A program made the position numbers and the translations under genes. The notes beneath the pieces were generated by a model. The model saw only the letters and a list, made by a program, of their open reading frames with translations. It was not told where the DNA came from and made no database searches. DNA of 41,871 bases from Candidatus Saccharimonadota bacterium (lineage in GTDB: Bacteria > Patescibacteriota > Saccharimonadia > Saccharimonadales > UBA4665). Positions 1,541 to 29,180 of the stretch are shown piece after piece (the stretch's first letter is position 1; every line of letters starts with the position of its first letter). The stretch lies in the NCBI GenBank assembly GCA_028289125.1, contig JAQGGZ010000008.1, positions 32,001-73,871 on the forward strand, in the 5' to 3' direction.

Positions 1541-2839
1541 ATGAACAATCCAAAACTCGAAGACATTGTAAGCCTCTCTAAACGCCGTGGTTTTATTTTT
1601 CCCGGCTCCGATGTCTACGGTGGTCTGAGCGGTACCTGGGACTACGGCCCACTCGGTGTCGCCCTCAAGCGCAACGTCATGCAGCTGTGGTGGAAGATGT
1701 TCGTCGAAGACCGCGACGACATGTTCGGCATCGACGCCGCCATCCTGATGAACCAGAAGGTCTGGCAGGCGAGCGGACATGTCGATACGTTTACCGATCC
1801 GCTGGTCGAGTGTTCGAATTGTCATGGCCGCTTCCGCGCTGACAAAATCGATACTTCGAAGTGTCCGTCTTGTGGATTGAAAGACACGTTCGGGGAACCA
1901 CGAGCGTTCAACATGATGTTCAAGACCAACGTCGGCCCCGTCGCTGACGAGAACAGCATCAGCTACCTCCGGCCGGAAACCGCCCAAGGTATTTTCACGA
2001 ACTTCAAGAATGTCGTCGACAGCCTATACCCGGACATGCCGTTCGGTCTGGCACAGCAGGGCAAGGCTTTCCGTAACGAGATCAGCCCGCGCGATTTCGT
2101 CTTCCGTAGCCGCGAGTTCGAGCAGATGGAAATCGAGTACTTCGTGCATCCCGATCAGTGGGAAGCTGAATTTGAGAAGTGGGTCAAAGCCGTCCACGCC
2201 TGGTGCGACGCACTAGGCCTGCCGGCTGAAAGCATCCACGAACTGGAAGTTCCTGAAAGCGACCGCGCGCACTACAGCAAGCGCACCATCGACTTCGAAT
2301 TTGATTTCCCGATCGGCCGTGAAGAACTGCTCGGCCTGGCATACCGCACCGATTTCGACCTGAAGAACATCGAGCGGGTGAGTGGTAAATCCATGGCCTA
2401 CCGGCCAAAAGATGGCGGCGAACCGTTCGTCCCGCACGTCATCGAGCCGTCGTTCGGCCTGGAGCGCGCCATCATGGCCGTCCTGACCGCTGCCTACACC
2501 GAAGATGAAGTCAACGGCGAGAAGCGCGCCTACCTGAAGCTGCCGAAGCACCTCGCGCCTGTCAAAGTCGCTGTATCGCCTCTGCTCAAGAACAAGCCGG
2601 AACTCGTCGACAAGGCCCGTGAAGTTTACTCGATGCTGAAGAAGGAATTCGGCGCGGTCACTTGGGATGACAACGGTAATATCGGTAAGCGGTACCGTCG
2701 GCAGGATGAGATCGGGACGCCTTATTGCGTGGTTATCGACTTTGATACTTTGGAAGATAATAGTGTGACGGTGCGTGATCGCGACTCTACCGAGCAAAAA
2801 CGCGTCACAATTGCTGAACTTGCTGGGCAGCTCGTCTAA
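1541..2839 (+). CDS. glyS: Glycyl-tRNA synthetase, dimeric (alpha2) type
   Basis: Charges tRNA-Gly with glycine in the cytoplasm. The protein starts with the class II signature region SKRRGFIFPGSDVYGG and GTWDYGPLG (about 13-40). It carries a four-cysteine zinc ribbon (C91, C94, C108, C111) as in archaeal-type and many bacterial single-chain enzymes. Motif 2 (FRNEISPRDFVFRSREFEQMEIE) and motif 3 (SFGLERAIMAVL) follow, and the C-terminal anticodon-binding domain runs from about 340 to 432. Length is slightly below the usual 440-460. The gene is read from its own TATAAT box as a near-leaderless message. The RNase H gene follows directly after the stop, so the two form one unit. Confidence 0.96.
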   Translation: MNNPKLEDIVSLSKRRGFIFPGSDVYGGLSGTWDYGPLGVALKRNVMQLWWKMFVEDRDDMFGIDAAILMNQKVWQASGHVDTFTDPLVECSNCHGRFRADKIDTSKCPSCGLKDTFGEPRAFNMMFKTNVGPVADENSISYLRPETAQGIFTNFKNVVDSLYPDMPFGLAQQGKAFRNEISPRDFVFRSREFEQMEIEYFVHPDQWEAEFEKWVKAVHAWCDALGLPAESIHELEVPESDRAHYSKRTIDFEFDFPIGREELLGLAYRTDFDLKNIERVSGKSMAYRPKDGGEPFVPHVIEPSFGLERAIMAVLTAAYTEDEVNGEKRAYLKLPKHLAPVKVAVSPLLKNKPELVDKAREVYSMLKKEFGAVTWDDNGNIGKRYRRQDEIGTPYCVVIDFDTLEDNSVTVRDRDSTEQKRVTIAELAGQLV

Positions 2840-3274
2840 ATGATTATTTATTACACCGACGGCTCCGCTTCTCCCAACCCCGGCCCAGGCGGTTTCTCCG
2901 TCATCAAGAACAACGAACCGCTGATCCTCGGCGGGGAACCGAGTGGCGCTCACACCACCAACATCCGCATGGAAGGCTTCGCCATTATGGCGGCGCTTAA
3001 AGACGCTAATGGTGAGCCGTGCCAGATTTATACCGACAGCGAGTTCTGGATCAACGTCATCACCAAGTGGTCGCTCAACTGGGAAGCCAAAGGCTGGAAG
3101 AAGTCCGGCGGCCCGATCATGAACCTCGACATCGTTCAGGAAGTCTGCCCGTTGTACCGCCAGTCGCAGGCCGAACTCATCTGGGTCCGCGGCCACAATA
3201 ACGATCCCGGCAACGAACTCGCCGACCACTGGGCCAACGAAGCCCGCAAGCAGTGGCTCGCGCGCAAAGTGTAA
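2840..3274 (+). CDS. rnhA: Ribonuclease HI
   Basis: Removes the RNA strand from RNA-DNA hybrids in the cytoplasm. All active-site residues are visible: D7 in YTDGSASPNPGPGG, E45 in NIRMEGFA, D66 in IYTDSEFW, and D129 in GNELADHWAN, with the helper His at 119 (VRGHNND). At 144 residues it matches the family. The ATG follows the glyS TAA with no spacing, so translation is probably coupled to glyS. Nothing downstream suggests a third gene in the unit: the next gene has its own -10 box. Confidence 0.93.
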   Translation: MIIYYTDGSASPNPGPGGFSVIKNNEPLILGGEPSGAHTTNIRMEGFAIMAALKDANGEPCQIYTDSEFWINVITKWSLNWEAKGWKKSGGPIMNLDIVQEVCPLYRQSQAELIWVRGHNNDPGNELADHWANEARKQWLARKV

Positions 3275-3318
3275 GTAATTCCACAGACTAACGGTTATGC
3301 TTCATGCCAGAATGAGGC

Positions 3319-3891
3319 ATGACGAACGCCATTATCCTCCACGGCGCTCCTGAAAAAGAGCATTATTATGATCCTAAGAAGCCGAGCGAAAGCAACGCTC
3401 ACTGGCTGCCGTGGCTGCAGAAAGAACTGATTATCCGCGACATCAAGGCCGACACGCCTGAGGTGCCGCATAGCTATGAACCTGACTGGAACACGTGGGT
3501 TAAAGAGGTCGAACGCTTCGATATCGGAGCCGAAACCATCCTGGTCGGCCACAGCTTCGGCGGTGGCTTCTGGCTACGCTATCTTAGCGAGCGGCCGGAT
3601 CTCAAAGTAGGGAAGGTCGTGCTGGTCGGCCCCTGGCTTGACCCCAACCATACTTTGCAACAAGACATCTTCAAAGATACTTTTGACCGCCAACTCGTCA
3701 GTCGCACCAAGCAGCTGGTCATTTTTCAGAGCGATGACGATTCTGACAGCGTCCACACATCCATCGCCCGTATCAAAGACGAGATCGACGGTATCACGTT
3801 CCGTCATTTCACCGGCCTCGGCCATTTCACCTATGAGAATCTGAACTCGACCGCCTTCACCACGCTCCGCGACGAGGTGCTCCATGACTGA
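3319..3891 (+). CDS. Small alpha/beta hydrolase, RBBP9/YdeN family
   Basis: A compact serine hydrolase of unknown substrate. The fold and catalytic set of the RBBP9/YdeN family are visible: the N-terminal strand NAIILHGAP, the nucleophile elbow GHSFGG with S79, the acid in the FQSDDDSD segment (139-143), and the catalytic His at 169 in GLGHFTYEN. It has 190 residues, normal for the family. No signal peptide, so cytoplasmic. The start follows an extended -10-like TGCCAGAAT by five bases, again a leaderless arrangement. The tiny membrane-protein gene downstream overlaps its end by eight bases. Confidence 0.85.
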   Translation: MTNAIILHGAPEKEHYYDPKKPSESNAHWLPWLQKELIIRDIKADTPEVPHSYEPDWNTWVKEVERFDIGAETILVGHSFGGGFWLRYLSERPDLKVGKVVLVGPWLDPNHTLQQDIFKDTFDRQLVSRTKQLVIFQSDDDSDSVHTSIARIKDEIDGITFRHFTGLGHFTYENLNSTAFTTLRDEVLHD

Positions 3892-4111: not shown

Positions 4112-4555
4112 ATGATACCTACTATGGAACTAAAGCAACGATTGACTGAATTACTGAAAGACAACCACATCATCCAGGTCGCGACCTCCGGGCCATGGAT
4201 CTGCACCGTACACGGTGCCGTCGGCGACGACCTCACCATCTACTGGATAAGCAAACCCGATCGCCGACATAGCCGTGAATTAGCCGTCGATCCGCGAGCT
4301 GCCGTCGCAGTCTTCGTGCAGCCGTGGCCACAGATCGGTATCCAAGCCGAAGGTTCCGCCACTGAAGTCACCGGCGACGATCTGGTACAAGCCGTCCAAG
4401 TCTACGCTGACAGCCTCAATAAAGACCAAGCCTTCCGTGACGGCTTGCTGAGCGGTGAGAACCCGCACCGTGTCTATGCTTTCACGGCGACATCATGGAA
4501 ACTGTTTGACCGCGAAAATTATCCCGATAGTGACGTTCAGGAGGTACAAGTATGA
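4112..4555 (+). CDS. Pyridoxamine 5'-phosphate oxidase-like FMN-binding split-barrel protein
   Basis: Matches the split beta-barrel family that includes general-stress FMN proteins. Visible marks are IQVATSGPWICTVHGAVGDDLTIYWIS (about 21-47), then the helix with SRELAVDPRAAVAVFV and a barrel strand IGIQAEGSATEV (about 76-87). At 147 residues it is the size of the small stress-type members rather than of true PdxH. An AGGGGGA site at 4098-4104 sits seven bases before the ATG. A second in-frame ATG at 4124 is possible. It overlaps the next gene by four bases. Likely a flavin-dependent reductase or a flavin binder; the substrate cannot be told. Confidence 0.75.
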   Translation: MIPTMELKQRLTELLKDNHIIQVATSGPWICTVHGAVGDDLTIYWISKPDRRHSRELAVDPRAAVAVFVQPWPQIGIQAEGSATEVTGDDLVQAVQVYADSLNKDQAFRDGLLSGENPHRVYAFTATSWKLFDRENYPDSDVQEVQV

Positions 4556-9838: not shown

Positions 9839-11089
9839 ATGATAAAACGCACCGATTTTCCCGATGATTTCTTATGGGGTGCCAGCACTGCCAGCCACCA
9901 GGTAGAAGGCGGCACCGTCAACCAGTGGAGCGTATGGGAACTGGCCCATGCCGCCGACCGAGCCCAGACTGCCAAGCAGCGTCTCGACTGGATGCCAAGC
10001 TGGCCCGATATCAGGCACGAAGCCGAAGACCCGGCCAACTACGTCTCGGGCAAGGCGGTCGATCACTATAACCGCTTCGAAGAGGACTTTGATATCGTCA
10101 AGGTGATGGGTTTGAACGCTTTCCGCTTCGGCATCGAATGGTCACGCCTACAACCGACCGAAGGCGCGTGGGACGTCGCGGCGGTCCAGCATTATCACGA
10201 CTATATCGCTGCGCTGCGGAAGCGTGGCATCGAGCCGATCCTCAACCTATGGCACTGGACCCAGCCGACCTGGTTCACCGACAAAGGCGGTTTTACGAAG
10301 CGCGCCAATCTGGTGCACTGGAACGCCTTCGTCAAGAGGGTCGCCGAGGAGTACGCCAGCGACCTCCGCATCGTGCTGACCCTGAACGAGACGAATGTTT
10401 ACAGTACGTTCAGCTACTTGGGCGACGAGTGGCCCCCGGGGCACAAGAACGTCCGAGAGTACCTATCGGTCAATCTCAACCTTATCACCGCGCACAAACA
10501 GGCCTACCGCGCTTTCAAGGCCGTTAACCCCGACGTGCAAATCGGTATGGCTCAGAACATGTCGATGGACCTGCCACTGACTGACTCAGTACTCGATAAG
10601 CTGACTGCCAAAGTTGCCGGTTACGCCTGGAACTACACCGTGGTCGACCGTGTGAAGCACTACTGTGATTTCATCGGTTTCAATTACTATTTTGCCAACT
10701 ACTGGCATGATTTTAAACGCCACAACCCCAAGGAACCGCTGAACGATATGGGCTGGTACATGGAACCGTCGCGCGTCTATGACCTCATCATGCAGGTGCA
10801 TAAACGCTATGGCAAACCGATATATATTACCGAAAACGGTGTAGCCGACGCAAAAGACGAGCACCGTCAATGGTGGCTTGAGCAGACGATCGAAGCCATG
10901 GCAAAGGCCAGGGCAGACGGCGCCGACCTGCGTGGTTATATGCACTGGAGTCTGCTCGATAACTTCGAGTGGGCTGAAGGCTGGTGGCCGAAGTTCGGTC
11001 TGATCAAGGTCGACCGTAAGAACGGCTTCAAACGCACAGCCCGGGCCAGCGCCAAATGGTGGGCCAAGTGGCTGAGAGCCGACACATAG
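9839..11089 (+). CDS. Glycoside hydrolase family 1 beta-glycosidase
   Basis: Cleaves terminal beta-linked glucose or galactose from small sugars by the retaining mechanism. GH1 marks are clear: DFLWGASTASHQVEGG at the N-terminus, NAFRFGIEWSRLQP, NLWHWTQPTWF, the acid/base Glu in LTLNETNVYS (Thr replaces the usual Pro of NEP), the nucleophile Glu in YITENGVAD, and the C-terminal GYMHWSLLDNFEWAEGW. The protein has 416 residues, slightly short for the family. No signal peptide, so it should act on sugars or glycosides already taken up. Together with the acyltransferase-like and ligase genes it is one of the few metabolic enzymes in the window. Confidence 0.93.
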   Translation: MIKRTDFPDDFLWGASTASHQVEGGTVNQWSVWELAHAADRAQTAKQRLDWMPSWPDIRHEAEDPANYVSGKAVDHYNRFEEDFDIVKVMGLNAFRFGIEWSRLQPTEGAWDVAAVQHYHDYIAALRKRGIEPILNLWHWTQPTWFTDKGGFTKRANLVHWNAFVKRVAEEYASDLRIVLTLNETNVYSTFSYLGDEWPPGHKNVREYLSVNLNLITAHKQAYRAFKAVNPDVQIGMAQNMSMDLPLTDSVLDKLTAKVAGYAWNYTVVDRVKHYCDFIGFNYYFANYWHDFKRHNPKEPLNDMGWYMEPSRVYDLIMQVHKRYGKPIYITENGVADAKDEHRQWWLEQTIEAMAKARADGADLRGYMHWSLLDNFEWAEGWWPKFGLIKVDRKNGFKRTARASAKWWAKWLRADT

Positions 11090-28704: not shown

Positions 28705-28733
28705 TTGACACAGAGACATATTCTTGCTAGAAT
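28705..28733 (+). promoter_or_regulatory. Strong promoter of the structured RNA
   Basis: TTGACA (28705-28710), 17 bases, TAGAAT (28728-28733) with the TG of an extended -10 just before it. One of the best promoters in the window, with no open reading frame behind it. Bases 28593-28704 upstream hold nothing recognised. Confidence 0.88.
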
Positions 28734-28738
28734 GGCAA

Positions 28739-29180
28739 TCTGTAAGTCTCGTAGAAGTCTTACGTACCTTTTACCCCCAATTTCTAATGTCTAGCTCAGC
28801 TAGATATATTAGATTGTTTTAGAGCGTGTTACTGACAAGTTGTTACCCTCCACTTTTCTCTAGCATTTATCTTTATGATAATAGCGCTCTAAAACAGACT
28901 AATCCCTTTAACCCCGCATCCCCTCTCGTTTTATTTGAGTTATGGCGTGATGACGGTTAAACCTGTGGTGGGCCAGTTGGGCGTCTCTGCGAGATCGCCT
29001 GACCGAGGCCTTCAAGGTGGGTTGAAGGGTGTAATACTGAGACGAACTTCGGTTCGTCTCAAGATGTAACCTCTCGAGTGAGCTTGCTCGCTCAAGGGTT
29101 TACATCTGGGGAGATCCTTACGAGGATGTCCCCAAAAATGAGCCTCCAGCGGTGCCCACCCCCTCTGGAGGCTCTTTTTT
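28739..29180 (+). ncRNA. Structured non-coding RNA of unknown class, about 440 nt
   Basis: Bounded by a near-consensus promoter and a U-tract terminator and without a plausible gene inside. Helices read from the sequence: 28742-28746/28759-28763; 28783-28788/28808-28813 with inner 28790-28795/28799-28804; a 12-bp stem 28816-28827/28884-28895; 28976-28987/28991-29003; 29009-29015/29022-29028; a 10-bp UUCG-capped hairpin 29038-29061; a two-part hairpin 29062-29107; 29108-29133; and the terminator stem. The last five lie almost end to end. I looked for the conserved cores of tmRNA, RNase P RNA, SRP RNA and 6S RNA and did not find them. The downstream gene has its own promoter, so this is a separate transcript. 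Confidence 0.75.
29140..29180 (+). terminator. Rho-independent terminator of the structured RNA
   Basis: GAGCCTCCAG (29140-29149) pairs with CTGGAGGCTC (29165-29174), followed by six T. Confidence 0.95.

Follow-up and report, generated by a model that had tools for sequence, protein, structure and literature searches.

What kind of gene lies at this locus, where a promoter close to consensus and an intrinsic terminator frame several hundred nucleotides? In the stretch that was analysed (41,871 nucleotides, hereafter the window), positions 28705-29180 of the + strand hold an unnamed RNA gene composed of a strong promoter, a folded RNA of about 440 nt and an intrinsic terminator. The RNA is 442 nt long here, within a family range of about 250-560 nt. 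Its features are as follows.

28705-28733, + strand: promoter with -35 TTGACA, 17-nt spacer, TAGAAT and an extended -10 (TGC), TGCTAGAAT.
About 28739-28741, + strand: expected transcription start, predicted from the promoter.
28741-28764, + strand: P1 hairpin, from the fold; in the alignment its position is conserved and its sequence variable.
28766-28778, + strand: conserved unpaired C-rich element ACCUU(A/U)UACCCCC, from the alignment; also present in phage mini-RNAs.
28784-28812, + strand: P2 hairpin CUAAY...RUUAG, variable in its inner stem, from the RNAalifold consensus.
28815-28826, + strand: P3, 5' strand; 12 of 12 pairs show two-sided changes across families.
28837-28855, + strand: P3a hairpin, from covariation, with loop 28841-28851 UGUUACCCUCC.
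28885-28896, + strand: P3, 3' strand, covarying with the 5' strand.
28904-28912, + strand: P4, 5' strand CCCUUUAAC, long-range, from pairing across homologues.
29016-29021, + strand: GGUGGG, proposed pseudoknot strand; GGUGGG or GGGUGG occurs in 145 of 150 homologues.
29021-29029, + strand: P4, 3' strand GUUGAAGGG, from pairing across homologues.
29039-29134, + strand: lineage-specific insertion comprising three strong hairpins (one with a UUCG cap), from the fold and spacing comparison.
29140-29174, + strand: terminal hairpin with a nearly invariant loop (29149-29165, GCGGUGCCCACCCCCUC) and a fully covarying stem; CCCACC at 29155-29160.
29175-29180, + strand: U-tract of the intrinsic terminator, six U, from the sequence.

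The original prediction had placed a near-perfect promoter at 28705-28733, and 11 of 12 consensus positions are indeed matched there. A promoter of the same form precedes 138 of the 145 homologues that could be tested, with a 17-nt spacing in 134 of them; it is a strong and probably constitutive promoter for the predicted RNA. The terminator was also found where it had been expected, the hairpin being directly followed by the six U. From 5' to 3', the RNA comprises P1, the C-rich element, P2, P3 (which contains P3a and a variable part, P3b), P4 with domain B enclosed between its two strands, the GGUGGG segment, the variable hairpins and the terminal hairpin. The UUAG directly before the 5' strand of P3 may lengthen this helix by pairing with CUAA at 28899-28902.

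The dense structure that had been predicted was borne out by folding: the RNA (28740-29180) folds at -181 kcal/mol versus -120 for shuffled sequences (z = -10.0, 0 of 100 shuffles as stable), and all 18 sampled homologues fold better than their shuffles (z from -2.6 to -12.6). The hairpins lying end to end are present in the fold, but the three at 29039-29134, including the UUCG-capped one, form a local insertion and are therefore the least conserved part of the RNA. P4 is separated from the terminator by 119 nt here versus 15-60 nt in most homologues. The conserved core consists of P2/P3/P3a, P4 and the terminal hairpin. In two members of family f6 (L271 and L274), an insertion of about 190 nt lies between P3 and P4, so a large extra domain is tolerated by the RNA.

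No coding signal was observed between promoter and terminator, in line with the original prediction: the longest sense ORF averages 46.7 codons versus 45.9 in shuffles. When the region was compared with the 4227 families of Rfam 15, no match was obtained at the curated gathering threshold, and relaxing it to E<=10 returned only miRNA and sRNA families at chance level. The prediction had also set aside tmRNA, RNase P, SRP and 6S RNA, rightly so. The tmRNA test (tRNA-like domain, tag reading frame, RF00023) and the 6S test (RF00013; long hairpin with a central bubble resembling an open promoter) gave no match in the region, and the RF00010 core of RNase P RNA was not found in it. These house-keeping RNAs are comparable to ours, tmRNA and RNase P RNA also in length; they differ in having loci of their own elsewhere in the source genome (tmRNA at C5:136890-137278, RNase P RNA at C2:14865-15214 with 220 bits, and weakly 6S RNA), and SRP RNA was not found in 21 Saccharimonadales genomes. 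The weak 6S matches, at C2:13134-13282 of the source genome (L228:2135-2283) and at L229-L231, fall below the Rfam cut-off; in all four genomes they lie within about 2 kb of rnpB and are possibly a divergent 6S RNA.

For SRP RNA (RF00169, RF01854), neither the region nor the 21 genomes gave a match, and the Ffh M-domain (PF02978) was found in 0 of 21, while controls were matched in both searches. No G1 motif of SRP-type GTPases was detected among the ORFs of the source genome. A divergent SRP RNA was rejected since the Ffh M-domain is missing as well; Saccharimonadales seem to be devoid of a signal recognition particle.

A DNA search recovered homologues in 52 of 60 related genomes, in each case beside dprA or topA, and in nearly all of these 52 loci the gene order is topA, (dprA), RNA, pth, der, the RNA being opposite in strand to these neighbours. 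The gene between the RNA and pth varies, pth is the next conserved gene, and beyond dprA, topA, pth and der no conserved protein gene accompanies the RNA in the 52 loci. A covariance model of the P3 core was run on 380 genomes from the whole phylum; its 24 matches all belong to Saccharimonadales, and other classes gave none. A second model, in which a divergent family was included, matched 218 of 392 genomes of the class, in 117 of 148 genera; among the misses listed, most belong to one genus (g63). When weak matches were inspected, true homologues were found beside dprA or pth in g63, in other gaps and in a sister family of the same class (f30). The predicted RNA is thus present in nearly every lineage of Saccharimonadales and in one sister family. 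Scanning named genomes gave at least 118 stretches; among the listed matches with an informative name almost all are Saccharibacteria, and the others listed are labelled only bacterium or Patescibacteria, with one MAG labelled Chloroflexi. One genome (G453) carries two copies, on contigs C4 and C9.

Related genomes also provided the covariation that the prediction called for, in P3, in P4 and in the terminal stem. The two-sided changes at all 12 pairs of P3 were seen in 0 of 500 shuffles; P3 and P3a together show 300 covarying cells versus 94 in shuffles, with 97% of cells paired, and covariation is also seen in the near family taken alone. Of 150 distinct homologues, 149 have a perfectly paired P4, a count biased towards pairing by the choice of the best window as 3' partner, and compensatory variants occur (CCCUUUAAG/CUUAAAGGG, GCCUUUAAC/GUUGAAGGC and CUCUUCAAC/GUUGAAGAG). 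The terminal stem has two-sided changes at 10 of 10 pairs (75 sequences; 251 cells versus 68 in shuffles) around a fixed loop. Pairs extend into this 17-nt loop and covary between families, G-C becoming A-U beside UGCCCACCC, the invariant apex of the hairpin. Invariant sequence sits in loops rather than in stems.

The apex UGCCCACCC matches the conserved GGGUGGG, so that the terminal hairpin probably takes part in a GGGUGGG/CCCACCC pseudoknot; its two strands vary too little for this pairing to covary. Both are absent in the sister family f30, where the P3a loop and P4 are kept. A 5'-end pairing, UUAUACCC/GGGUAUAA, seen in some members, was rejected: where the G strand of P4 is changed (L073, L076), P4 stays paired and the 5' element does not follow. 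The likeness of P3 (GUUUUAGAGC) to the SpyCas9 repeat was set down to coincidence, as family f26 has an unrelated P3 sequence with compensation.

Since it has a promoter and a terminator of its own, its helices covary, it contains no ORF and it is conserved independently of its neighbours, the locus is, as judged from its sequence, a new family of stand-alone structured bacterial RNA that no described family matches. The existence of this RNA is near certain, the transcript itself being predicted. All the tests that were run against the original prediction, the Rfam comparison and the covariation analysis among them, came out in its favour. In the literature consulted no earlier description was found, and the main text of the surveys of structured RNAs that were consulted does not include these bacteria.

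What could such an RNA do? The P3a loop has a nearly invariant UACCCUCC/CCUCC core that resembles an anti-Shine-Dalgarno (SD) sequence and persists in the sister family f30; CCUCC is also the core of the anti-SD sequence. In the source genome, four non-self sites offer 12 contiguous pairs to the loop, and two of the four coincide with the SD of a gene, an Hsp20-like one (GGAGGGUAACAACUAUG; the sequence before hsp20 is GGAGGGUAACAA) and one for a secreted protein, both names being read from the sequence and not from a database search. Sites with at least 11 pairs lie before a start in 10 of 23 cases versus a mean of 2.6 of 12.8 for flank-shuffled loops (1 of 60 controls as high), figures that concern one genome, include internal starts among the start calls and are to be read knowing that any CCUCC loop favours SD sites. 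This weak signal is only suggestive of pairing between the loop and SD sites of mRNAs.

In the same genome SD motifs are a minority, a GGAG peak at -13 to -9 being seen in only about 50 genes. About 104 of 419 ATG starts are preceded by a -10-like TANWHT beginning at -15 to -12, and leaderless mRNAs look common there, with putative examples in the window at 9839, 25209 (- strand) and 29248. The 16S gene of this genome is cut by a contig end.

Further indications came from viral contigs. A complete copy of the RNA, with promoter and terminator, is carried by the IMG/VR contig IMGVR_UViG_3300049064_000004 (L227), which also has RecT-, FtsK- and methylase-like genes; in annotated phage and plasmid collections the DNA of the RNA had no match. 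Mini-RNAs of about 120 nt that reproduce domain A only were found in five other viral contigs (L407, L408, L415, L460 and L461). They contain the C-rich segment, a P2 that is clearer in some than in others, and P3/P3a including the UACCCUCC loop, and the 3' strand of P3 runs into a U-tract, so that P3 itself is the terminator (three were folded).

The second module is copied on its own. Exact scans for two host-type terminal loops gave 37 and 38 viral stretches versus 2 and 3 with reversed loops. The host-type 17-nt loop is borne there by unrelated, fully paired stems: in 67 of 74 loci (both loop sets, L227 excluded) the stem has at least 7 pairs, and in 0 of 74 are P3a and P4 elements found upstream. 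In 333 kb of other viral loci such a hairpin is lacking, and in the host genome it occurs exactly once, in the RNA itself. Many viral hairpins are intergenic and in sense orientation. Eight related contigs have theirs 40-48 nt ahead of a gene for an acidic protein of 262-292 residues, with an SD-like AGGAG in the gap; in several related contigs this is a gene of the head region. In one of the eight (L380), the position occupied by the hairpin in its relatives holds the other loop type, which suggests adaptation to the host lineage, and from one host lineage to another the flanks of the loop change together with those of the viral hairpins (GYGG..CCUC versus GUGA..UUAC). Stand-alone hairpin and mini-RNA occur together on IMGVR_UViG_3300037069_000499 (L367/L407). 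Proteins of hairpin contigs match Saccharibacteria DNA in 8 of 36 and 6 of 38 contigs versus 1 of 43 controls, and among the 38 contigs that have the second loop at least 2 are similar to Firmicutes phages; Saccharibacteria are candidate, not proven, hosts. By sequence comparison, each of the two conserved modules is copied on its own in viral contigs. This suggests a function of the RNA that viruses need to copy or block.

The reading that we favour, though tentatively, is that of a new RNA of Saccharimonadales and one sister family which would act in trans through its C-rich loops and whose modules are imitated by phages. It draws on the order-wide conservation, the fixed synteny, the conserved promoter and the covarying P3/P3a, P4 and terminal stem. 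The RNA would be made from the strong promoter, end in a terminator that doubles as an element of the fold and, as predicted, be abundant. Domain A (ACCUUAUACCCCC, P2, P3 and the P3a loop) would offer a single-stranded, C-rich, anti-SD-like sequence to a partner, which would be either an RNA-binding protein or the ribosome-binding site of mRNAs led by an SD, and P4 together with the GGGUGGG/CCCACCC pseudoknot would hold the shape of the RNA and protect its 3' end. Since the unpaired C-rich sequences have been kept by evolution and phages alike, a partner in trans is likely; the viral modules would most simply be decoys or substitutes for the same partner. Less probable is a bolder version, in which a core RNA of the whole order would have two functional modules, the C-rich P3a domain and the UGCCCACCC hairpin, and phages would make a separate decoy of each, in the form of the small RNAs of about 120 nt and the intergenic hairpins. 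The RNA would then be a new layer of RNA-based control, perhaps of SD-led versus leaderless translation; this is conceivable but doubtful.

Against a trans-acting regulator, the conserved loops would be explained equally well if the RNA were purely structural or bound by a protein, and a protein is almost as likely a partner of the C-rich loops as an mRNA. Somewhat less likely than the favoured reading is a house-keeping ribonucleoprotein scaffold, in which a Saccharibacteria-specific protein would bind the UGCCCACCC hairpin as well as the C-rich loops; the RNA, without pairing to mRNA, would have a structural or storage-like role as supposed for OLE or raiA RNA. Protein recognition is in keeping with the size of the RNA, its single copy, its presence across the order, its conserved loops and the independent copying of two modules by viruses, and flanks varying in step between hosts and viral hairpins would be expected if the partner reads them. 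Moreover, the L460 contig has, 0.9 kb upstream of its mini-RNA (at 4262), a DUF2828/DUF7788 vWA protein (1774-3348) of a PHROG named RNA-binding, in what is presumably a Ro60-like layout. However, this protein had no match in the host DNA searched, and the flanking genes named above are the only conserved ones that travel with the RNA.

It is unlikely that the RNA is directed at phages or responds to them, with phage RNA as its partner and the viral pieces as anti-RNAs that open GGGUGGG/CCCACCC or occupy domain A. The hairpin found once in the host genome versus in about 67 viral contigs, the restriction of mini-RNAs to domain A and the contig with both modules would fit; its near-universal, fixed chromosomal place, however, has the look of a core gene and not of a defence island, and the full-length copy in L227 suggests use, not evasion. 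A cis-acting leader or attenuator of the same-strand ORF downstream, a 740-residue orphan without a Pfam match, is scarcely tenable, as the prediction had held: it is refuted by the synteny (variable following gene, then opposite-strand pth), and the RNA closes with a strong terminator while the ORF has its own -10 (TACAAT), placed as for a leaderless transcript.

On the favoured trans-acting reading, the RNA may work like SD-pairing regulators, in which a C-rich loop blocks translation by pairing at the SD of an mRNA, without belonging to any of them. C-rich loops of S. aureus RNAIII are reported to pair with Shine-Dalgarno regions (PMC2837412). The likeness to RNAIII extends to size class, many hairpins, a long-range helix and C-rich apical loops, one of them in the terminator hairpin, with SD pairing putative here. 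However, there is no homology, no agr locus or peptide, and the hosts differ; in the Saccharibacteria RNA an entire order shares the loop sequence, and the terminator loop probably pairs within the RNA. OLE, raiA/ModT and ROOL-type RNAs are likewise large, complex, conserved and non-coding, with a mostly obscure biochemical role, but belong to other phyla and differ in fold and context, our RNA having no Rfam match.

The ultrasmall, epibiotic bacteria of this major lineage thereby gain a large, deeply conserved RNA that belongs to no described family. If the bolder version above is true, the RNA would be a new RNA-based layer of control in bacteria that also seem to lack a signal recognition particle. 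The viral mimics point to the parts of the RNA that matter and are ready-made competitors for experiments, and cultured oral Saccharibacteria make the RNA testable.

A last comparison concerns the terminator loop. RepG of Helicobacter is a lineage-limited small RNA of about 90 nt with a C/U-rich terminator loop. Both RNAs would share a target-reading loop in the terminator hairpin, but the Saccharibacteria loop hardly varies and probably has its docking site within the RNA. In four members of the sister family f30 (L261, L263, L266 and L268), this loop carries GUUCGA, which resembles a tRNA T-loop, instead of CCCACC.
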